A stretch of 20,933 nt of DNA, from the IMG/VR virus record IMGVR_UViG_3300037493_002936, positions 1 through 20,933 of that record, one strand, 5' to 3'. The notes beneath the pieces were generated by a model that was not told where the DNA came from, ran no database searches, and was given only the letters and a program-made list of their open reading frames with translations. Source of the DNA: a virus. Numbering within the stretch: position 1 is the first letter of the stretch; the number at the start of each line of letters is the position of its first letter. Positions 8,447 through 19,076 of the stretch are shown here, piece by piece. A program made the translations under genes and the position numbers.

Positions 8447-8454
8447 TATAAATA
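8447..8454 (+). promoter_or_regulatory. T4-type late promoter (TATAAATA) of the curli-like operon
   Basis: A perfect TATAAATA octamer, the -10 element used by T4 late sigma (gp55), lies 29 bases before the ATG at 8483. It is correctly oriented for the plus-strand operon and sits in an intergenic gap, unlike chance matches inside genes at about 1275 and 4990. No -35 box is needed at T4 late promoters and none is seen. Confidence 0.72.
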
Positions 8455-8482: not shown

Positions 8483-8914
8483 ATGGATATCGGATTTCCA
8501 AACCTTGACTTCTTCAGTCTTGTCCAACAATGTGGATTCCCTATAGCACTAGCAGTGGTATGTGGATGGTTCATAATGCAAGCAATTTCATTAGTGCTTG
8601 GATCAGTAATAAAATCAATCAAAAAAATTATAGGACTCATTAAGTCGATGGACGGCAGAGTGCGTCAAATGAATGTTGATATATTGGAATTAGATATATT
8701 AGTATCTAATTCACTTGATGTTGATTCACTTCCGTTAAAAGTTCATCATGAAGTTGCAGCAATAATGAATAATAACGGGGCTCCTCCTGTTACGCTTACA
8801 CCAAAGAAACAATCAACTATAATGAAAAAGATTTCTGATACTGTTGAAAAAGCTCAAGAAGTAGTTGATGATGCTACTAAAATAGTTGAGAAAGTAGGAA
8901 AACTTAAGAAATGA
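8483..8914 (+). CDS. Membrane-anchored protein, 143 aa (holin-like paralogue 1)
   Basis: First gene after the late promoter. The N-terminus has one membrane helix (residues about 16-40, CGFPIALAVVCGWFIMQAISLVLG), then a basic stretch and a long helical, probably coiled-coil tail ending TVEKAQEVVDDATKIVEKVGKLKK. The layout of an N-terminal FP.A-type helix, a following helix and a block resembling 'R.R.M..DILELDILVSNSL' is shared with the next two genes, so the three look like tandem paralogues. The architecture is like that of small holin-like proteins of the BhlA/UviB type. Its stop overlaps the next start (ATGA). A membrane role in lysis or in assembly of the curli-like secretion system is inferred. 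Confidence 0.78.
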   Translation: MDIGFPNLDFFSLVQQCGFPIALAVVCGWFIMQAISLVLGSVIKSIKKIIGLIKSMDGRVRQMNVDILELDILVSNSLDVDSLPLKVHHEVAAIMNNNGAPPVTLTPKKQSTIMKKISDTVEKAQEVVDDATKIVEKVGKLKK

Positions 8915-9195
8915 ATCCAGAATATATTAAATTCTTTTCTGACACATTAACTCCAATACTTGGTAGTTGTGTACTTGGAGCATTCATATTTACAGCATTA
9001 AAATTTGTTTTGGGCGATGTTATTACTTCAGTTAAAACATTAGCAAGTATTGTAATGGCTTTAGAGAATAGAGTTAAAACTTGTTCACATGAATTAATTA
9101 AAATTGATGTAACTATATCATCAGTATTAGGACTTAGACCAGATTTGGATAGAATATCCAGAATGGATGGCAAAAATGATGCTAGGAGAGACTAA
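8911..9195 (+). CDS. Membrane-anchored protein, 94 aa (holin-like paralogue 2)
   Basis: A 94-aa protein with an N-terminal membrane helix (residues about 14-35, TPILGSCVLGAFIFTALKFVLG) followed by VITSVKTLASIVMALENRV and the block HELIKIDVTISSVLGLR. That last block aligns with DNDLLRLTAKLNTVLQMR in the next gene and NVDILELDILVSNSL in the previous one. It starts inside the stop of the previous gene and ends in TAATG shared with the next, so the three are probably made in fixed ratio. Function unknown; holin-like or secretion accessory. Confidence 0.78.
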   Translation: MNPEYIKFFSDTLTPILGSCVLGAFIFTALKFVLGDVITSVKTLASIVMALENRVKTCSHELIKIDVTISSVLGLRPDLDRISRMDGKNDARRD

Positions 9196-9458
9196 TGGAC
9201 ATAACACAAATTGCAGAACTTATAAACAAATATGGTTTTCCAATCATAGCTGCAGGTTATATGTTACGCATGGTAAAGTATGTATGGTCATTTACCATTG
9301 AAGAAATTAATCCTGTATTAGGTGAAGCATCAAAAGAATTAATCACTTTGATTGATAGAATACGATTACTTGATAATGATTTACTTAGACTCACAGCAAA
9401 ACTAAACACTGTGTTACAAATGCGGGAGAATGCACATAAGCAAAAGGATATCGAATGA
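9195..9458 (+). CDS. Membrane-anchored protein, 87 aa (holin-like paralogue 3)
   Basis: An 87-aa protein beginning MDITQIAELINKYGFPIIAAGYM. The membrane helix covers residues about 14-34, and the rest is amphipathic helix (ELITLIDRIRLLDNDLLRLTAKLNTVLQMR). I recall very similar small proteins in marine T4-like phages, without known function. The start overlaps the previous stop (TAATG), and the end overlaps the CsgF-like start (ATGA). The BhlA/UviB-like layout suggests a holin or a small inner-membrane oligomer. Direct coupling to csgF makes a link with the secretion genes possible. Confidence 0.8.
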   Translation: MDITQIAELINKYGFPIIAAGYMLRMVKYVWSFTIEEINPVLGEASKELITLIDRIRLLDNDLLRLTAKLNTVLQMRENAHKQKDIE

Positions 9459-9883
9459 GAATTCTAATATTATTTTTATTATCAAGTAATGTATTAGCAG
9501 AACAAACTTTTTCATTTAAATCACCTGCATTTAGTGGTATAGGATATTCTTCACATGTTCAAACAATAGAGAATACTGAAACTACTAGAAAACAAGCATT
9601 AGAGGCACAGAAATTACAAGATGCCAAGGATGCTGCAGCATTAGTTAAGAACACGAATCTTTCGAAATTTCTGAATAACTTTGAGAGTCGTGTTTATGCA
9701 CAACTGTCAACTCAATTGATTAATAACTTATTTGGTGAAAATCCAAAGAATAGTGGAACAGTTCAGATTGAAGGTAATACTATAACATATACCAAGACAG
9801 CTGACCAAATATCAATGACTATTACTGGTGCAGATGGTAATGTAACACAAGTAATAATACCGGTCGGTAGTTTTACATTCTAA
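9455..9883 (+). CDS. csgF: CsgF-like curli assembly factor
   Basis: A 142-aa exported protein. The signal peptide is residues 1-15 (MRILILFLLSSNVLA), and the mature end starts EQTFSFKSPAFSG. This matches the N-terminus of E. coli CsgF (TMTFQFRNPNFGG), the segment that inserts into the CsgG pore. The middle is a helix, and the C-terminal part (NTITYTKTADQISMTITGADGNVTQVIIPVGSF) fits the CsgF beta-sheet domain, equivalent to DRKTGQTSTIQVSG in E. coli. CsgF caps CsgG at the cell surface and couples secretion to nucleation of the curli fibre. The stop overlaps the csgG start (TAATG), as expected of partners. The identification rests on the N-terminal match plus linkage to csgG. Confidence 0.87.
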   Translation: MRILILFLLSSNVLAEQTFSFKSPAFSGIGYSSHVQTIENTETTRKQALEAQKLQDAKDAAALVKNTNLSKFLNNFESRVYAQLSTQLINNLFGENPKNSGTVQIEGNTITYTKTADQISMTITGADGNVTQVIIPVGSFTF

Positions 9884-10671
9884 TGCGTATTATATTATTG
9901 TGCATATTATTAACTGGATGTTCTGGTGGTATATTAACTCCGTTTAATGTATTCACTAATGAACCTGAAGTATTGGCATTTAAGGAAAAAAGAGAAATAA
10001 TCTTACCTCCTCCTAAAGACGGTAAGGTAGTTGTTGCTGTATATTCATTTTTGGATAAGACTGGTCAACGAAAAGATTCTGCTACTATAGCAAAATTATC
10101 ATCCGCTGTAACACAAGGTGGTGAATCTATATTATTAAAATCATTGGAAGATGCTGGGGAAGGTAATTGGTTTAGAGTTGTAGAACGAGTAGGGCTAGAT
10201 AATTTATTAAAAGAAAGACAATTGATTAGGTCTGCTCGTGATGAAGCACAAGATGATAAACAAATAGGTTCGATTCTTTATGCTGGTATGATAATTGAAG
10301 GATCAATAGTATCATATGATACTAATATTAGAACTGGTGGTATTGGTCTTCGTTATATGGGAATTGGACCAGATACACAATATCAGGAAGATATGGTAAC
10401 TGTTTCATTAAGGGCAATTAGTACACAAACTGGTGAAGTATTACTCACTATTAATGTACAAAAGACGATCTTAAGTTATACGGTTGGTGTTGCTGTATTT
10501 AAGTTTTTTGATATGGGAACACAATCATTTGAAAATGAAGTTGGTGCTACTAAAACTGAGGCAGGAATATATGCATTGAAAGCAGCATTAGATTTAGCAG
10601 TAGAAGAATTAATTATTAAAGGTGAAAGAAAAAGATTATGGAAATTTTCATCCACTTTTAGGAATAATTAA
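9883..10671 (+). CDS. csgG: CsgG-like outer-membrane curli secretion channel (lipoprotein)
   Basis: A 262-aa homologue of CsgG, the nonameric outer-membrane pore of type VIII (curli) secretion. The lipobox is LLTGC, with the acylated Cys at residue 13. Conserved blocks include VVVAVYSFLDKTGQ, FRVVERVGLDNLLKERQLIRSARDE, MIIEGSIVSYDTNIRTGG, GLRYMGIGPDTQYQEDMVTVSLR and ISTQTGEVLLTINVQKTILSY, each close to E. coli CsgG (for example GARYFGIGADTQYQ and SKTILSY). The length is near the usual 277 aa. The loop that forms the pore constriction in E. coli (Y51, N55, F56) reads RKDSATIAKLSS here and does not keep those residues. It sits between csgF and the curlin-repeat gene. No csgE, csgC or csgD is visible. 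Confidence 0.95.
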   Translation: MRIILLCILLTGCSGGILTPFNVFTNEPEVLAFKEKREIILPPPKDGKVVVAVYSFLDKTGQRKDSATIAKLSSAVTQGGESILLKSLEDAGEGNWFRVVERVGLDNLLKERQLIRSARDEAQDDKQIGSILYAGMIIEGSIVSYDTNIRTGGIGLRYMGIGPDTQYQEDMVTVSLRAISTQTGEVLLTINVQKTILSYTVGVAVFKFFDMGTQSFENEVGATKTEAGIYALKAALDLAVEELIIKGERKRLWKFSSTFRNN

Positions 10672-11382
10672 ATGAACATCATAAGAAATATATTATTGTT
10701 TGTTATGCTTACAATAATAAACCAATCATCAATTGGAGACAGTGGCGGTAATTCTGTTTATATTGATCAAACTAATGCTGATAATTCTACTGTAAATATT
10801 ACACAAACAGGAGCAAATAATACTGTAGGTGACCCAGATTCTATTGGTTCACCGTCTTTTCAAATAGAAGGCAACTCTATGTTGTTTGATATTATACAAG
10901 ATGGTATGAATAATGCTATAACAGGTAATCTAATTGGCGGCGGAGCAACTGCTGATATTACTCAAACTGGTAATAGCAACTCTACCGATTTAAATATGGG
11001 TAATATGGGTACTGGTTCAGGTACTTTAAGTTTGAACTTCACTGGTAGTAATAACACATCAGTATTGAATATTGGTGTATTACATGATTCTGGAAACTAT
11101 TCATATCTTTCAAACATTACAGGTAGTAATAACACTTTAACGAGCACTATTAATAGTAAATATACTGAGAATAATTTTATTGTAACGGGGTCAGGTAATG
11201 CAATCACAACTACTCAAACTGGGGCTAATGGTACTAATCTTATTGCTGGTAATAATATCGCCATATCCAATATTGGAAGCAATAATACCATAGGGATTAG
11301 TCAAGATGGAACAACAAATCCAAATTCGGCCATTGTCAATCTTACTGGTTCTGATGCTACTGTTAATATCACGCAACATTAA
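10672..11382 (+). CDS. Curlin-repeat (CsgA/CsgB-like) amyloid-type secreted protein
   Basis: A 236-aa protein with an N-terminal hydrophobic export signal (residues about 1-22) and then Asn/Gly/Thr/Ser-rich imperfect repeats. Repeat cores resembling the curlin pattern (x-I-x-Q-x-G-x-x-N) are seen near residues 42-52 (NITQTGANNTV), 74-83 (IIQDGMNNAI), 96-104 (ITQTGNSNS), 122-129 (NFTGSNNT), 149-155 (ITGSNNT), 181-188 and 200-213 (IGSNNTIGISQDG), ending VNITQH. There is almost no Lys or Arg, and Cys is absent from the repeats. This is how CsgA and CsgB, the subunits of curli amyloid, look; the family is not exact, so no symbol is given. It is the natural substrate of the CsgG channel next to it. 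Its last 25 codons overlap the FecR-domain gene in another frame. Confidence 0.88.
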   Translation: MNIIRNILLFVMLTIINQSSIGDSGGNSVYIDQTNADNSTVNITQTGANNTVGDPDSIGSPSFQIEGNSMLFDIIQDGMNNAITGNLIGGGATADITQTGNSNSTDLNMGNMGTGSGTLSLNFTGSNNTSVLNIGVLHDSGNYSYLSNITGSNNTLTSTINSKYTENNFIVTGSGNAITTTQTGANGTNLIAGNNIAISNIGSNNTIGISQDGTTNPNSAIVNLTGSDATVNITQH

Positions 11383-12364
11383 TGCTGGTATTGGTACAGT
11401 AATAAATCATAAAGGCAATGCTTCTATTACACGTGATAAGACAGTAATAGAATCAAAGAAAGATGTTAGTATAGAATCATTAGATATAGTTGAAACAGGT
11501 AAAGGTGAAGTAGGTATATCTTTTGATGATGATACACAAGTAAAAGTAACAGATAATAGTAAGTTGGTGATAGATGATTTCGTCTATGATCCTAATAACA
11601 AGTCTGTCGGTAAGTTGGCATTGAAATGTGCTATTGGTACTGTACGATACGCCTCTGGTAATATTGCACATGCTAATAATAAGAATGTGGCTATTAATAC
11701 ACCTACAGCAACTATAGCGGTTCGAGGTACAGCATTCACTATGACAGTTGATGAAATTGGTCAGTCAATGGTTATATTGTTACCTAACTTAGATGGTTCA
11801 GTAGGTGAAATTGAAGTTAGAACCGCGGTAGGTTCTGTTGTATTGAATCAAGCTTTTCAAGCAACAGTAACTACTTCAAATGAAATTAAACCTATGAAGC
11901 CGGTGGTGTTATTAATAAATGAATCTGCTATCACTAATTTTATGATAGTTGCTCCACCGAAGGAAATAGCTCAAAAAATGATTGAGGATAATAAATCTGG
12001 TTCATCACTAGATTTTAATGGATTAGATAAAGATGCTTTATCTGTAAGAGTATTCATTGATCCATATGCAAAGTTTAATGAATTAAATGTTGATGCTTTA
12101 TTAATAGAATATTTGACAAATGGATTAGAAGATGCTTTTGCGGTAAGTACATTTGCTCCTGGATATAATTCACAGAATCAAGTTTACATATTTGATAAAC
12201 AGACTAATTGGATGATACAAAGATCAGTGAAACAGAGTGCTACATTATTAATCAACAAAGACCGAGGTTACAATATAACACTTGTACAGGATGGAACAAC
12301 AGTAAAATTGCAAAGTGCAGATACAACCACTAATAAAATTTTTATTAAACAAGGAGCAAATTAA
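11306..12364 (+). CDS. Secreted FecR-domain protein
   Basis: A 352-aa protein. The ATG at 11306 lies 77 bases inside the curlin-repeat gene, in the +1 frame, and gives a proper signal peptide (residues 1-27: Arg at 8, a hydrophobic core SILLVLMLLL, then RNINA before GIGTV). The ATG at 11354 would leave too little n-region. The mature part begins with a FecR-type beta domain: GIGTVINHKGNASITR, IVETGKGEVGISFDDDTQVKV, and AINTPTATIAVRGTAFT at about 129-145, the hallmark of the family. FecR domains occur in exported beta-rich proteins and in iron-signal regulators; no sigma-interacting N-terminus or inner-membrane helix is present, so a regulator is unlikely. An exported partner of the curli-like fibre is inferred. 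The C-terminal half is not recognised. Confidence 0.87.
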   Translation: MEQQIQIRPLSILLVLMLLLISRNINAGIGTVINHKGNASITRDKTVIESKKDVSIESLDIVETGKGEVGISFDDDTQVKVTDNSKLVIDDFVYDPNNKSVGKLALKCAIGTVRYASGNIAHANNKNVAINTPTATIAVRGTAFTMTVDEIGQSMVILLPNLDGSVGEIEVRTAVGSVVLNQAFQATVTTSNEIKPMKPVVLLINESAITNFMIVAPPKEIAQKMIEDNKSGSSLDFNGLDKDALSVRVFIDPYAKFNELNVDALLIEYLTNGLEDAFAVSTFAPGYNSQNQVYIFDKQTNWMIQRSVKQSATLLINKDRGYNITLVQDGTTVKLQSADTTTNKIFIKQGAN

Positions 12365-12365
12365 T

Positions 12366-12722
12366 ATGGCAGATATAGTAGTGAGAAAACCTAGAAAACC
12401 AGTAATTAAAAAGGAAATTGAACCAATGATTGATTTAGCAAAAGAACCTACACCAGTCACACCTGTAGCAAAAGAAGATTTTATGACTTCTAAATGGCGA
12501 CCAATGATGGCTATTAGTTATATGGCAATTTGTCTATTTGACTTTATGGTCGGTCCAATTCTATATAATGTACTTCAATATATGAATCCTGGACAACATT
12601 TAGAAATGTGGCAAGCAGTTACTTTACAGGGCGGCGGATTATATCATCTATCCATGGGTGCTATTATCGGTATTACTGCTTTTGGTAGAACTAAAGAAAA
12701 AATGGCTGAAGTTAAAGAATAA
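12366..12722 (+). CDS. Probable holin
   Basis: A 118-aa membrane protein, the last gene of the late operon. The frame is open from a GTG at 12315, but the ATG at 12366, two bases after the previous stop and with AAGGAG upstream, is the likely start. A charged, Pro-rich cytoplasmic N-terminus (residues 1-45) is followed by SKWRPMMAISYMAICLFDFMVGPILYNVLQY (first helix). A second hydrophobic part, GGGLYHLSMGAIIGITAFG, precedes a charged tail TKEKMAEVKE. The W-R-P...D-F...G-P arrangement resembles the gene-transfer-agent/phage 3TM holin family, with one helix fewer evident. A holin would release the GH19 endolysin encoded at 16991-17767, which has no signal peptide. Annotation by architecture. 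Confidence 0.72.
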   Translation: MADIVVRKPRKPVIKKEIEPMIDLAKEPTPVTPVAKEDFMTSKWRPMMAISYMAICLFDFMVGPILYNVLQYMNPGQHLEMWQAVTLQGGGLYHLSMGAIIGITAFGRTKEKMAEVKE

Positions 12723-13168: not shown

Positions 13169-15253
13169 CTACTTGCTTGTTGCGACAAATGTACCTTTCC
13201 AGTTCTTAGGGAAAGATGGATCACTCATATATCCATGAATTCTTTTACGCATCATATCATAATAGTAATCTAATTCACCATTGAATGAACCTTTCAAATC
13301 CATACAATGTGTAATGGCGTATGCCCATTCTTGTTTGCAATAATGTTTGAACATTTTCTTATGAATCGTTCTAGCGTTTGCAAATTCTAATCTATTATAT
13401 CTGTCTGGTTGTAATACTGTATAGATATCCAATCCAATTGTCTTACCTTTTACTGCAATGTTGTCTAACTTAATAACGAAATAATCATCTTTAACAAGTT
13501 TAGCAGTTTCTGGTCCAATGATTAATAATACACCATAAGACTTAGTTTGTCCTTCTAATCTAGCAGCAGTAGATACTGAGTCGCCTAATACATCATATCC
13601 AAATCTAGATTTAGAACCAATGTTACCTATAAGAGTTTGACCAGTATTAACACCAGCACCCATACCAATAATTGGTTTACCTTGTGCTACTAGAGTTTCA
13701 TTGAATCCATCAACAGAAGCAATCATTTCTAAGGCTGTTTTAACAGCATTCTTTGCATGATTGATATCATCTAAAGGTGCACCGTGAACGTGAAGACTAG
13801 CATCTCCAATAAACTTGATAAGACAACCATCATTCTTTAATACTGGTTCTGATATAGCAGTCATATAATCATTCATAATAGAAGTTAATCCTTCTACATC
13901 ATCACCATAAGATTCACCTAGAGTGGTAAAACCTCTGAGGTCGGTCATAACAATAGATAATTCTTTACGTTCACCACCAAGTTTAATCAGTTCTGGATTC
14001 TTTTGTAATCTTTCAACCATTACTGGAGAAACATAAGAACCAAATTGTTTTTTAATTTGGAGTTTCTGACCTAATTCAGTTAAGAATTTGACCGTATAAG
14101 TGTGACCATAAACTGCGACAATTGCGAATACAGGTACTGTAATATCGAAAAGATAATATAGGTTGGTATATAGATAATTAGAAATAGGATAAAGAGAGAT
14201 AATGATGCTACAAAATATAAGAATTCCATATTTCCACCGTGCTATTAAAATTGATATGATACTTAATACCAATACAGTAAGTAACTCTGCACCAGTGCTC
14301 CAATCGGGTCTTGATATATTTATACCTTTAGTAAGTGTGTCTAAAATTGCTGCTTGAACATGATGTGGAAAGACTGATCCAGCAGAAGTTGCAACGGGGT
14401 TATTGAGCCCTCTTCCAGTGAGTCCAACAATGACGATTGCTCCACTAAAGGACTCTGGGAGTTTGCTTGATGAATATTCACTAATGGTATTTGGTTTAAT
14501 CCAAATGCGACCGAGGGAGTCTGTATTGATTCTTCCGAACTTTGGTATTCTGACTGCTTCGATTGATCCATTGTTGACTTTGACTTGAAATGATGGATCT
14601 CCTGATGCCACACGCAAGGTTTCGAGACTGATACTCGGATACAATAATCCTTTGGAACTGACCACCATTGGGATTCTTCGGGTAACGCCATCAATTTCTG
14701 GGAGTGTATTAACAACCCCAATACCATTAGCATTATCATTGAAGACTTGTATATTCGGAAGTATGTTTTCATATTTTACTCCTACATCACCAGTACCTAT
14801 AACAGAAACTCCTGGTCTAAATGGTTTATATGTTTCGGTGAAAGGTTCATTAGTTCCAGTTTGAGGTAGAACAACTGGATATACCTGAAGAACTTGTGTT
14901 AATGTATCATCTTGACCAAATCTATCTGCTTCAGGCATAAACAGATTAAAAACAACAAGACCTGCGCCTCGAATATACAACTCCTTAATAAGATTAGCAT
15001 ATTCATTCCGAGGGAATGGGAATTGACCTTTTTCTTTAAGGGATGCGTCATCTATATTTACTATTTTTATATCTGATTGTTGAATATCTTGTGTAAGTAA
15101 AGTATCAAAATACCTCAACCTTACTGATTCTACAAAAGATGGGTCAACTACTCTTAACCCTATAATTAAACCTAATGTTACTAACGATAACCATGGAGAC
15201 AAGAGTAGTTTTTTCATATTATTGGTGTACTGGTATTGAAATGATTGGGTCAT
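13169..15253 (-). CDS. CHASE2-domain class III adenylate/guanylate cyclase
   Basis: A full-length receptor cyclase of up to 694 aa. Layout: a membrane helix near residues 16-34; a CHASE2 extracytoplasmic sensor domain (about 35-315, with VRLRYFDTLL, IKIVNIDDASL, NIDGVTRR-type IDGVTRRIPMVV and AIVIVGLTG); three membrane helices (about 321-386); and a class III cyclase domain (about 428-590). Metal aspartates D438 (VMTDLRGFT) and D484 (FIGDA) are present. K480 and D554 fit adenine recognition, so ATP to cAMP is favoured. R565 is kept, but the transition-state Asn is Ser561 (VSTAARLE instead of VN.AARLE). The ATG at 15253 overlaps the previous gene by 35 bases; the ATG at 15217 (MKKLLLSPW), one base after that stop, is an equally likely start (682 aa). 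The gene is intact and has local base composition. Confidence 0.93.
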   Translation of the reverse strand: MTQSFQYQYTNNMKKLLLSPWLSLVTLGLIIGLRVVDPSFVESVRLRYFDTLLTQDIQQSDIKIVNIDDASLKEKGQFPFPRNEYANLIKELYIRGAGLVVFNLFMPEADRFGQDDTLTQVLQVYPVVLPQTGTNEPFTETYKPFRPGVSVIGTGDVGVKYENILPNIQVFNDNANGIGVVNTLPEIDGVTRRIPMVVSSKGLLYPSISLETLRVASGDPSFQVKVNNGSIEAVRIPKFGRINTDSLGRIWIKPNTISEYSSSKLPESFSGAIVIVGLTGRGLNNPVATSAGSVFPHHVQAAILDTLTKGINISRPDWSTGAELLTVLVLSIISILIARWKYGILIFCSIIISLYPISNYLYTNLYYLFDITVPVFAIVAVYGHTYTVKFLTELGQKLQIKKQFGSYVSPVMVERLQKNPELIKLGGERKELSIVMTDLRGFTTLGESYGDDVEGLTSIMNDYMTAISEPVLKNDGCLIKFIGDASLHVHGAPLDDINHAKNAVKTALEMIASVDGFNETLVAQGKPIIGMGAGVNTGQTLIGNIGSKSRFGYDVLGDSVSTAARLEGQTKSYGVLLIIGPETAKLVKDDYFVIKLDNIAVKGKTIGLDIYTVLQPDRYNRLEFANARTIHKKMFKHYCKQEWAYAITHCMDLKGSFNGELDYYYDMMRKRIHGYMSDPSFPKNWKGTFVATSK

Positions 15254-15560: not shown

Positions 15561-15829
15561 CAGATTGCTTTAGCTGCTGTGGCAGCAATAGTAATTGCCG
15601 TATCAATAATAAACTTCAATTGAGCTTTAGCATTCAAATCAGAAGCATCCATTGTAATAGACTTTTCTAATTGTAAATCAGATAACAGTTCTTGGTACTC
15701 AGAATCAGATATGCTCTTTTCTTCATACATCTTTGTTAATTCAAGTAGCATTGAAGCAATAGTTTCCAGTTCTTCATTTTCTTTAGCATCATAACCATTT
15801 AACTGGTTTAAAACTTCATTTATTTTCAT
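15560..15829 (-). CDS. Small acidic protein with hydrophobic C-terminus, 89 aa
   Basis: An 89-aa protein with an acidic helical N-terminal two thirds (MKINEVLNQLNGYDAKENEELETI..., SDSEYQELLSDLQLEKS) and a C-terminal Ala/Ile-rich segment (LKFIIDTAITIAATAAKAI). The end may be a membrane-active or tail-anchor helix. No signal peptide. The start overlaps the lipoprotein stop (ATGA) and the stop overlaps the next start (TGATG). Position within the lysis genes suggests an envelope role; function unknown. Confidence 0.72.
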   Translation of the reverse strand: MKINEVLNQLNGYDAKENEELETIASMLLELTKMYEEKSISDSEYQELLSDLQLEKSITMDASDLNAKAQLKFIIDTAITIAATAAKAI

Positions 15830-16227
15830 CGTGGCTTAGTTCCTAATACAGTTTGAATAGTTTTAGCAGATCGTTCAATAATGCTCATTTTAGTAGTACA
15901 ATATGTAACGGATGGTTCAGCAGTTTTATATCTATCTGACAATCCTTGAACTTCAAGTAAAAGACTCTTAGACATATTAGTAGCTTCTTCATTATGAGGA
16001 ATACTCGAAGTATAATTCTTGAACTCAGTTGCAACACTTAAGATACTACTAACATTACGTCTAGTTAATGCTACATCAGGACAATCTGTTTTAGATATTT
16101 CTGCCTTTGATCTAACTTTTGTTGCTAGTTGATATTCATTAGCATCAAACCCTGCCATATTATAAGCATCGAGCATTGCACAACCAGATAAGGTTGTAAA
16201 CATTAAAACCAATATTAATCTTTTCAT
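15826..16227 (-). CDS. Outer-membrane-type lipoprotein, 133 aa (candidate o-spanin)
   Basis: A lipoprotein: signal MKRLILVLMFTTLSGC with lipobox LSGC, Cys at residue 16, followed by AMLDAYNM. The +2 residue is Ala, which fits the outer membrane. The mature part is mostly helical, with two further Cys (TDCPD and VTYCTTK) that could form a disulfide. In a lysis region a lipoprotein next to an endolysin may be the outer spanin, but no i-spanin-type partner with an N-terminal membrane anchor and coiled coil is adjacent, so this is only a candidate. Overlaps both neighbours by ATGA. Confidence 0.8.
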   Translation of the reverse strand: MKRLILVLMFTTLSGCAMLDAYNMAGFDANEYQLATKVRSKAEISKTDCPDVALTRRNVSSILSVATEFKNYTSSIPHNEEATNMSKSLLLEVQGLSDRYKTAEPSVTYCTTKMSIIERSAKTIQTVLGTKPR

Positions 16228-16982
16228 TTATTCCAATCTTCGTAATTTGCGACAATAGTTTCCAAAGGTTTTAAATCTTTAGGAATTTTAGGTGAAAAAT
16301 CAATACCAGTTTTAGCCTCTATGTCCTTAACTGATACTACATATTTTGCAATTTGCTTTGGATCTAATTTTTCATTTGGATACCAAAAAGCAATCATACG
16401 TTTATTTTCTGGTTGAATAACAATCTTATAAACATGAGTAGGAATACCTACCTTATTACCCATTGTTTTATAACCTTTATCAAAGTGAGTACCTGTTATT
16501 GCATACACATCTGATTTGGTTGCCCAAGCTCGGACACGTTCTTCTGTTGACTTCCAAATACCTCGATTATTTCCTGGTGCTTGAGGCATCATATTAGATA
16601 AGAAAAAAGATTCAGACATTAACTTAGAGTCAGATACAAAATCTGCTGCCGGAGCCATATGTCCTCTATCCAAACCGGAACCTGTATAATCTTTTAAAGT
16701 TACTCTATACTGAGCGGGAACTTCTGTATCTTCTCGAAAATCATCTTTTCTAGAAGCAGATTTAACTGCAATTTCATCTTTAGTAATATGTTCAACTACA
16801 AAATAAGCTACTTTAGTCTTATAATCATAATTTATAGCATAATCAGATTTACATATGTATTGATTATTGCCTTCTTTAGTTATTTGAGGAGCACCCCAAA
16901 TAGCTACTTTAGGACATTTATCATCAATACCATTGGCAAATACATTACTAGATAACAATAGCAATAATAAAAATTTATTCAT
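16224..16982 (-). CDS. Secreted DNA/RNA non-specific endonuclease (DRGH family)
   Basis: A 252-aa nuclease of the Serratia NucA/EndoG (beta-beta-alpha metal) family. The signal peptide is residues 1-16 (MNKFLLLLLLSSNVFA). The catalytic motif is DRGHMAPAADF (D105-F115), with His108 the general base. The metal-binding region is FFLSNMMPQAPGNNRGIWKSTEERVR (residues 127-151), including the conserved Asn. A later strand block reads VYAITGTHFDKG. It would cut DNA and RNA in the periplasm or after lysis. It is eight bases downstream of the GH19 gene and overlaps the lipoprotein gene. Possible roles: breaking down released nucleic acid, killing competing incoming phage DNA, or feeding nucleotides; these are inferences. 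Confidence 0.92.
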   Translation of the reverse strand: MNKFLLLLLLSSNVFANGIDDKCPKVAIWGAPQITKEGNNQYICKSDYAINYDYKTKVAYFVVEHITKDEIAVKSASRKDDFREDTEVPAQYRVTLKDYTGSGLDRGHMAPAADFVSDSKLMSESFFLSNMMPQAPGNNRGIWKSTEERVRAWATKSDVYAITGTHFDKGYKTMGNKVGIPTHVYKIVIQPENKRMIAFWYPNEKLDPKQIAKYVVSVKDIEAKTGIDFSPKIPKDLKPLETIVANYEDWNK

Positions 16983-16990
16983 ATTATATC

Positions 16991-17767
16991 CTAAAACAAA
17001 TCAGAGAAGAAGTTACCAATTGAATCTAACCAATCATCATCTTTCTCTACTGCTTCGGCATCAGGTATAGCAACTTCAACTAATACAATAGGAGCAATGA
17101 TTGCAGCAGCCACAGCAGGTGCTACAGCAACAACTGGAACTGGTTTAGAAAATACATCTTCATCAATAGCACTTAATGCGATATCATAATGATGTTGTCT
17201 ATCTTTCAAACCAATAGTACCACCATTAATTCTTTTAGTTAATGTAGTAAACTCACTAGAATCACAATATTGATTTAGTTTATTAGTTTGCCAGAAGAAT
17301 GCACCTGAACAAATAGCACCCTCTAATGTTTCACAATATGCAACTGTTTCATCTAATGTTTTACCGATAGACTTTGCAAACTTTGAATAGTTATCTTTAC
17401 CAGTTAATTGAATACATCCTCGACCTCGGAATTTGAATCCATCACCTGAGGCTTCTGTACCATTACCCATTCTATCTGCATAAACCTTATTAGCAATCTT
17501 TTCTGGATTACGATTATAAGGAGCAGCCATTGCAACAGAGATAAATCTTTTTGGCCAAACTTTACAAAGACCATCGGCAGAATAATTCAAGTTTTCTTTC
17601 AAGGCAGTAAACTGAGCAGATTCGTGGCCACATTGTGCCAAGAAAGCAGCAACTCTTTTTCTTGTATTAATTTCATACAATGGTAGAACTTTATTAAGAA
17701 CCTCAAGTAGTGCTTCAGGTTGTTTATTGTTCGGGCATACCTTTTTCAGTTGATCTAATTTTATCAT
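16991..17767 (-). CDS. GH19 (chitinase-type) endolysin
   Basis: A 258-aa glycoside hydrolase family 19 protein acting as peptidoglycan-cleaving endolysin. The catalytic region reads FLAQCGHESAQFTALKENLNYSADGL, with E49 as acid and a second Glu near 58. The substrate groove motif FRGRGCIQLTG spans 113-123, and CSGAFFWQTNKLN and TKRINGG follow. There is no N-terminal signal peptide, so it needs a holin (12366-12722). After the catalytic domain comes an unusual tail: a Pro/Val/Ala-rich hydrophobic stretch (about residues 208-235) and an acidic amphipathic end (EKDDDWLDSIGNFFSDLF). The tail may hold it at the membrane. The start overlaps the preceding stop (ATGA). Confidence 0.93.
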   Translation of the reverse strand: MIKLDQLKKVCPNNKQPEALLEVLNKVLPLYEINTRKRVAAFLAQCGHESAQFTALKENLNYSADGLCKVWPKRFISVAMAAPYNRNPEKIANKVYADRMGNGTEASGDGFKFRGRGCIQLTGKDNYSKFAKSIGKTLDETVAYCETLEGAICSGAFFWQTNKLNQYCDSSEFTTLTKRINGGTIGLKDRQHHYDIALSAIDEDVFSKPVPVVAVAPAVAAAIIAPIVLVEVAIPDAEAVEKDDDWLDSIGNFFSDLF

Positions 17768-18614: not shown

Positions 18615-19076
18615 TTATTCAGTCAATAATTCAACATCATACTTGCCATCACCAATAAGAATCTTTTTCGGTTTCTTATGCTCTGGAATAACATTTTCAA
18701 GATAAATGGATAAAATACCATCAATGAATTCCGCATCTTTTACGATTACGGTCTCTGCTAGTTTTATTGTTTTCTTGAATGGTTTTGCACTAATACCTTT
18801 ATGGAGGTATTCAACTTCATTATCAAATTCACCTTTAGTACCAGCCATAATAAGAACACAATCTTCAACGGTAATTTCTAGTTCTTCCCTGGAAAAACCA
18901 GCAACTGCCAATTCAACAACATATTCATTGTCATTGTATTTAATGATATTATGGGGAGGATACTTATTTGATAATTGATAGTCACTTGATACTCTTTCCA
19001 TATCTTTAAGTAGCCTTTCAATGCCTACGAATTGATTTAGGTGAGCACCAAAAGCCATATGTGCGGTTGTATTCAT
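18615..19076 (-). CDS. hsp20: Small heat shock protein, Hsp20/alpha-crystallin family
   Basis: A 153-aa Hsp20 (IbpA-like) ATP-independent chaperone that holds unfolding proteins. The alpha-crystallin domain spans about residues 40-130: YPPHNIIKYNDNEYVVELAVAGFSREELEITVEDCVLIMAG, then EVEYLHKGISAKPFKKTIKLAETV, and the closing DAEFIDGILSIYLENVIPE, equivalent to A.l.nGvL.i.lp. The I-x-I type C-terminal anchor may be KKILIG. Hsp20 genes are common in T4-like marine phages. A GGAG ribosome site lies 7 bases before the ATG, after a 185-base structured leader. Flanking non-coding elements on both sides suggest a self-contained cassette. Confidence 0.94.
   Translation of the reverse strand: MNTTAHMAFGAHLNQFVGIERLLKDMERVSSDYQLSNKYPPHNIIKYNDNEYVVELAVAGFSREELEITVEDCVLIMAGTKGEFDNEVEYLHKGISAKPFKKTIKLAETVIVKDAEFIDGILSIYLENVIPEHKKPKKILIGDGKYDVELLTE

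Follow-up and report, generated by a model that had tools for sequence, protein, structure and literature searches.

The virus record IMGVR_UViG_3300037493_002936 of IMG/VR, analysed here over all its 20,933 bases (hereafter the window), harbors a real CsgF-CsgG-curlin-FecR operon, which also encodes a trio of small paralogous membrane proteins and a probable holin (Table 1). A sequence-only reading of this DNA had described a curli-like (type VIII) secretion operon of eight overlapping plus-strand genes under a late promoter. The eight open reading frames (ORFs) do lie at 8483-12722, and the CsgF, CsgG, curlin-repeat and FecR identities each stand above the corresponding Pfam cut-off (PF10614, 25.8 bits; PF03783, 20.8 bits; PF07012, 20.7 bits; PF04773, 24 bits). 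The overlap between the curlin and FecR genes is real, but the last two genes do not overlap, since the holin start is best read as the ATG at 12366 behind AAGGAG (12351-12356) and not as the GTG at 12315. As a whole the window represents part of a T4-like phage genome. Its minus strand codes for a partial UvsX, a family B DNA polymerase, an exonuclease and an ATP-dependent ligase, and the polymerase shares 47% identity with those of T4-like Synechococcus phages, the closest among the 15 best of 2279 records. Neither an Rfam match nor a transfer RNA was found in the window.

Table 1. Features of the curli-like module and its neighbors in the window
Feature	Position	Strand	Evidence or remark
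Late promoter TATAAATA (T4-type)	8447..8454	+	36 nucleotides before first gene
Small membrane paralogue 1, 143 amino acids, C-terminal extension	8483..8914	+	phrog_18771 E 1.6e-14
Small membrane paralogue 2, 94 amino acids, conserved DARRD at end	8911..9195	+	phrog_18771 E 2.5e-23
Small membrane paralogue 3, 87 amino acids	9195..9458	+	phrog_18771 E 6.5e-23; weak phrog_4898 holin match E 1.8e-6
CsgF homologue, signal-peptide-like N-terminus	9455..9883	+	PF10614 58.5 bits
CsgG outer-membrane pore homologue, lipobox-like LLTGC	9883..10671	+	PF03783 183.9 bits
Curlin-repeat protein, candidate amyloid subunit	10672..11382	+	PF07012 25.7 bits, 3 stretches
Overlap of curlin 3' end and FecR signal peptide, 77 nucleotides, two frames	11306..11382	+	
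Exported FecR-domain protein: signal peptide, FecR domain, low-confidence linker, C-terminal beta region	11306..12364	+	PF04773 31.8 bits
Probable holin, last operon gene	12366..12722	+	PF11351 22.9 bits; PHROG 3427
CHASE2-domain adenylate/guanylate cyclase, convergent to curli operon	13169..15253	-	PF05226 125 bits, PF00211 62.4 bits
GH19-type endolysin, upstream of cyclase on same strand; neighbor, outside module count	16991..17767	-	PF00182 29 bits; phrog_181 endolysin E 9.6e-72

The phage curli module is already known as a kind, and the variant in the window is new. CsgF and CsgG have been described in pelagimyophages (PMC7029224) and in Melnitz, where a role in lysis was proposed (PMC9004378). 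The complete set, which adds curlin, FecR, cyclase and a "histidine kinase", is known from two phage families, and module-bearing phages were found at all 65 stations examined (PMC9599517). The CsgG/CsgF annotations in marine T4-like phages that the sequence-only reading pointed to therefore exist; that reading was unaware of the description of the complete gene set in PMC9599517. Two of the roles it proposed (lysis, a barrier to superinfection, holding cells or virions together) are also already in print (PMC9004378, PMC9599517).

The module was compared over 85 records, namely the best 80 of 92 IMG/VR loci, three annotated records, the window and the window's own cut (L001). Family profiles identify CsgG in 85/85 of these, CsgF in 83, the small membrane family in 82, curlin in 78, FecR in 73, the cyclase in 65 and the holin in 7, counts in which many of the misses are contig ends. 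The window shows the pelagiphage order membrane pair-CsgF-CsgG-curlin-FecR, with the cyclase nearby, and the CHASE2-cyclase, which had been left out of the earlier gene count, is a module-associated gene in other phages. Two curlin ORFs are present in 26 of 78 records, and one in the window.

The proposed homology to CsgF, CsgG and curlin is borne out. CsgF was detected in 7/7 records, the profile of CsgG aligns with its E. coli counterpart (3x2r) over its length (E 1.1e-71), and the curlin profile matches the curlin 8c50 (E 4.5e-7) and the CsgA fibril 8enq (E 7.6e-6). The channel loop residues, which are Y, N and F in E. coli CsgG (positions 51, 55 and 56), are S, K and L in the window and S, T and L in alphaproteobacterial CsgG adjoining curlin genes, so that the phage pore looks alphaproteobacterial. 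The curlin-repeat protein is predicted to be a beta-solenoid (predicted local distance difference test, pLDDT, 82.5; predicted template modelling score, pTM, 0.78). Foldseek gave no match to this model at E <=0.001; a second structural comparison placed 8c50 first (Z 19.8, root-mean-square deviation (rmsd) 8.7, 194 residues), with unrelated solenoids reaching Z 17.6, and the fold match is therefore supportive only, the sequence profile being the better evidence. That these genes code for virion or tail-fibre parts unrelated to secretion would agree with a late promoter and with the resemblance of the solenoid model to tailspikes as well. We consider it extremely improbable, given that the CsgG and CsgF homology spans the whole domain, that a lipobox and signal peptides can be read in the proteins and that the curlin profile matches.

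The late promoter proposed before the operon is supported by the conserved position of TATAAATA across phages. The region from 150 nucleotides upstream to the first 12 nucleotides of the first module gene, a membrane gene, carries the motif in 38 of the 62 distinct upstreams (26 of 45 clusters when upstreams are grouped by similarity), versus 0.9% of random stretches and 7.2% (40/554) of other ORFs, taken mechanically as those of at least 150 amino acids outside the module in the same records. It is nearly absent at the inner genes (CsgF 1/82, CsgG 0/84, curlin 0/103, FecR 0/72, cyclase 0/65). In the window alone the motif is not enriched (4 found, 5.6 expected by chance), and the late-promoter claim therefore rests solely on the cross-phage comparison. 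Its position at the head and near-absence further inside suggest that the module is transcribed as one late unit headed by the membrane pair, and a curli-like (type VIII) export operon behind a putative late promoter in a phage is thus supported.

All three small proteins before csgF match phrog_18771 and are paralogues, as had been proposed. Two copies of this family are present in 75 of 82 records and three in the other 7, and the end of a membrane gene coincides with the csgF start in 69 of 83. In the remaining 14 the pair mostly lies slightly upstream or is relocated beyond the cyclase while still linked (L028, L029, L033, L067, L068, L071, L072); one record (L044) starts at csgF. Six long records (81-168 kb) hold exactly two family copies each, both at one place. 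This linkage, together with the constant copy number at a single place, indicates from gene context that the membrane pair belongs to the module. Its members are 83-147 amino acids long and by reading consist of one membrane helix and an amphipathic tail; among 24 scanned, all match phrog_18771, 4 also match a holin PHROG (phrog_4898), and, at a Pfam threshold of E 0.1, none matches a kinase family, HisKA/HATPase types included. In PMC9599517 the gene or genes labelled "HK" (one or two) are placed directly before csgF, a position by which they are probably the same genes as the membrane pair, and the "histidine kinase" label is then probably a misnaming. The pair is best described as a constant module part for which a kinase name is unwarranted. 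This bears on the regulated biofilm program put forward in PMC9599517, where FecR is an iron-type regulator and the upstream histidine kinases, together with cyclic AMP (cAMP), turn on the curli genes. The gene order and linkage agree with it, and the cyclase and the FecR domain are truly present, but the upstream proteins are small and, in the 24 scanned, free of kinase matches, the FecR protein is by reading exported without a cytoplasmic anti-sigma part, and a phage late promoter accounts for the transcription; we find such a program quite unlikely.

The FecR gene starts inside the curlin gene with an overlap of more than 15 nucleotides in 68/73 records and 50/52 distinct loci, lengths that are upper bounds as starts were taken as the first in frame. 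Of 52 distinct loci, 51 have the overlap in the +1 frame. A stop codon interrupts that frame in 571 of 594 internal curlin-gene segments, which argues that an open overlap is not due to chance. The polar curlin repeat, shifted by one base, gives the leucine-rich signal peptide of FecR. We know of no report of an overprinted signal peptide, the check having covered one paper, PMC9599517, for the words "overlap" and "promoter".

The FecR model resembles the PupR signaling domain 6ovk (Z 15.5, rmsd 2.5, 133 residues). It also resembles 5ix9, a retention/anchoring domain of a large adhesin (Z 7.1, rmsd 2.4, 74/76 residues, 23% identity; Foldseek E 0.016), at a Z below 8 that may reflect a common arrangement; a literature search for 5IX9 found no paper. 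Matches to the NCBIfam families of the leptospiral Lsa33 (30.6 bits, cut-off 420) and LipL45 (27 bits, cut-off 350) are weak. The last FecR residues (NKIFIKQG) look by eye like a curlin repeat, but the idea that this tail is such a repeat or nucleates fibres found no support and was dropped. With the curlin profile, 28 real tails gave at best 6.7 bits and 1400 shuffles 8.6 bits, hence no separation, and when profile was compared with profile the match reached E 0.015 across 21 columns at a probability of 2.9 (FecR-domain control, E 0.25).

In the cyclase, the catalytic residues (both metal-binding Asp, Lys, Asp and Arg) are kept in every covered row, that is 49 or 50 of 60 sequences. The rows fall in three motif classes. 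Since cyclase types differ at a kept position, the gene appears to have been replaced in place, which suggests from the motif classes that it was exchanged while its location was maintained. The cyclase at L009:7467-9536 (minus strand) has active-site motifs unlike those of close relatives in the same clade.

A probable holin as last gene, also part of the earlier description, is supported by PHROG 3427 (holin, E 1.3e-4); the call stays at "probable" because the score for PF11351 (GTA_holin_3TM) is below the curated cut-off (22.9 versus 24.8 bits). The gene is restricted to the clade of the window, 7 of the 85 records (the window and L005-L010). Beyond the cyclase, the minus strand codes for a GH19 endolysin in the window and in L007-L010. 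These genes bear on the proposal made for Melnitz that CsgF and CsgG were turned into a lysis device, a gated pore or pinholin with a part in timing lysis (PMC9004378). The late promoter, the holin-like gene that ends the operon in this clade, the endolysin near the cyclase, and the match of one window paralogue, like 4 of the 24 family members, to the holin family phrog_4898 all fit it. We nevertheless regard it as unlikely: curlin is kept in 78/85 records, contrary to the account of csgA and csgB as missing in PMC9004378, the holin and endolysin linkage is confined to one clade, CsgG is an outer-membrane protein whereas holins act elsewhere, and the added FecR and cyclase are left unexplained. 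Between endolysin and cyclase, the window also carries on the minus strand a DNA/RNA non-specific endonuclease with a signal-peptide-like start (16224-16982; PF01223, 186 bits), and several further loci have a NUC1-type gene close to the module (e.g. L012, L013, L020, L027). A small lipoprotein-like protein (LSGC) without family match (15826-16227, minus strand), recorded as adjoining the endolysin, is possibly a spanin. An Hsp20 small heat-shock protein (18615-19076, minus strand; PF00011, 53.7 bits) is likewise found near the module in other loci.

We propose from these sequence features that the module exports a curli-like amyloid late in infection and senses its own outer-membrane pore or fibre through a FecR/CHASE2-cyclase sensor, a reading for which we judge the case evenly balanced, its export half being the firmer part. 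For the sensor half, both an exported FecR domain and a linked CHASE2 cyclase are present, with the FecR fold and, save for one Asn to Ser change, the residues described. The operon would be switched on late in infection; CsgG and CsgF would form an outer-membrane channel through which Sec-exported curlin leaves and polymerises on the cell, and the small membrane pair would be the inner-membrane part of the assembly. The exported FecR-domain protein may monitor the pore or fibre from the periplasm, in the manner of FecR/PupR with outer-membrane partners, and relay its state to the inner-membrane cyclase by way of the CHASE2 domain, which is periplasmic; a host receptor would then read the cAMP made. 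The benefit to the phage is the least certain step: a late surface coat could exclude competing phages and keep progeny, debris or new hosts close, and cAMP could tune the host or the lysis time. This reading predicts that the module is made late, names its constant parts and makes cAMP, as well as amyloid, the pathway to measure; if it is true, phages would build a fibre outside the cell and use it for sensing. In a bolder form, which seems to us unlikely, two unrelated bacterial systems, an amyloid exporter and an outer-membrane-to-cAMP sensor, would be fused into a phage-encoded second-messenger sense of the surface: FecR, with its signal peptide overprinted on the amyloid gene, would read the state of the pore or fibre, such as contact with a neighboring cell or an incoming phage, and cAMP would set host physiology or the moment of lysis.

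Several observations weigh against an exporter coupled to a sensor. An exact TATAAATA is missing in 24 of the 62 distinct upstreams, some of which have a near copy, and in the clade of the window the cyclase, encoded on the opposite strand, is separated from the late promoter. Confidence in the FecR model is modest (pLDDT 69.7, pTM 0.52), and in 20 of 50 rows, including the window, the cyclase has Ser where the transition-state Asn is predicted. The cAMP receptor domain PF00027 was found in 0/7 phage records, and a host receptor is therefore needed. Melnitz infection proceeded without cell clumping in cytograms or transmission electron microscopy (PMC9004378), and the FecR-domain gene beside cyaD1 in S. 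meliloti is dispensable for signal perception (PMC5498481), which weakens the step from FecR to CHASE2. Finally, CsgE (PF10627) was detected in 0/7 records (the window and its six long relatives), the E. coli control being detected, so that the reported absence of csgE holds. The idea of a minimal and perhaps re-purposed system is thereby confirmed in its first half; the pore keeps the CsgG signature and has an alphaproteobacterial-like loop, a curlin gene is present in 78 of 85 records, and the pore itself therefore gives no argument for a changed use. The missing CsgE gate would also fit an uptake pore, an open CsgG admitting larger nutrients to the infected cell (PMC7029224, PMC9599517). 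This appears very unlikely to us, as CsgF, curlin and the late timing are unexplained by it, and CsgE, which is not universal outside Gammaproteobacteria, is also described as missing from the curli loci of alphaproteobacteria (PMC9599517).

The relation of the module to bacterial systems can be followed in two directions. Like the E. coli curli system (csgBAC-csgDEFG), the window has CsgG, CsgF and curlin repeats, but differs from it by having no detected CsgE; the E. coli system is not known to have FecR, cyclase or membrane-pair additions. Alphaproteobacterial type VIII loci (Pseudovibrio, Henriciella, Hyphomonas) share the order CsgF-CsgG followed by curlin genes and a similar pore loop, whereas they have no adjoining membrane pair, FecR or cyclase and contain several, often longer, curlin ORFs. 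More broadly, 24 of 31 bacterial curli loci are without membrane pair, FecR or cyclase, including all 8 from named cultured strains (L093, L094, L096, L098, L099, L106, L107, L111), and the pair was found in 0/289 alphaproteobacterial genomes (positive control, 6/6 phage records with two copies each). That the pair is bacterial in origin was considered and rejected. The pair is present in the other 7 of the 31, all from metagenome bins. These module-bearing contigs (L085-L090, L115) are filed in Flavobacteriales, Rhodobacteraceae, Sphingobacteriales, Flavobacteriaceae and Pelagibacter bins. Ten proteins were scanned from four of them: phage replication or packaging genes were recognised in L087, L089 and L115, which argues for contaminated bins, and L090 gave one PHROG of unknown function. 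All seven contigs are likely phage, a view drawn from these four and extended to L085, L086 and L088.

In the second direction, CHASE2 cyclases of S. meliloti signal through the outer-membrane protein NsrA, with a FecR-domain gene beside cyaD1 (PMC5498481, PMC7529298, PMC13001267), and in Campylobacterota the genes of CHASE2 cyclases and FecR proteins occur in clusters (PMC9239204). Such pairs (CyaD1-SMc02177 in S. meliloti and the Campylobacterota clusters) likewise link an exported FecR-domain protein to a CHASE2 cyclase. FecR relatives are present in 62 of 190 alphaproteobacterial genomes at E 1e-12; among 20 of the best loci, considered with flanks of up to 8 kb at either end, a CHASE2-cyclase-like gene occurs in 6 and a curli gene in none, and these FecR proteins differ from that of the phage in being mostly larger (268 to 2991 amino acids, some cut). 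Because curli loci and FecR/CHASE2 pairs occur apart in the bacterial loci examined, the phage module appears to join two bacterial systems, and what is new in phages are the additions: the small membrane pair, the FecR-domain protein and the CHASE2-adenylate cyclase.

In a set of 50,697 annotated records of phages, both the membrane protein and FecR match the same six only, four of Melnitz and two HTVC008M entries; the cyclase matches these and two others over one third of its length, and CsgG these and one unannotated 1.5-kb contig. A 1.5-kb low-coverage wastewater contig filed as Salmonella phage (L004; OR851715.1, 1-1499) carries a phage-like CsgG with 40% identity and is of doubtful origin. 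HTVC008M and Melnitz share 43-45% identity with the window in CsgG and about 40% in FecR. The pelagimyophage, pelagipodophage and Melnitz modules have the same membrane pair, CsgF, CsgG, curlin and FecR, then the cyclase, and a second curlin between FecR and cyclase, absent from the window, is frequent but not universal in pelagiphage modules. The window differs from them by its third membrane paralogue, by the holin as last gene and by a cyclase that is inverted and convergent to the operon.

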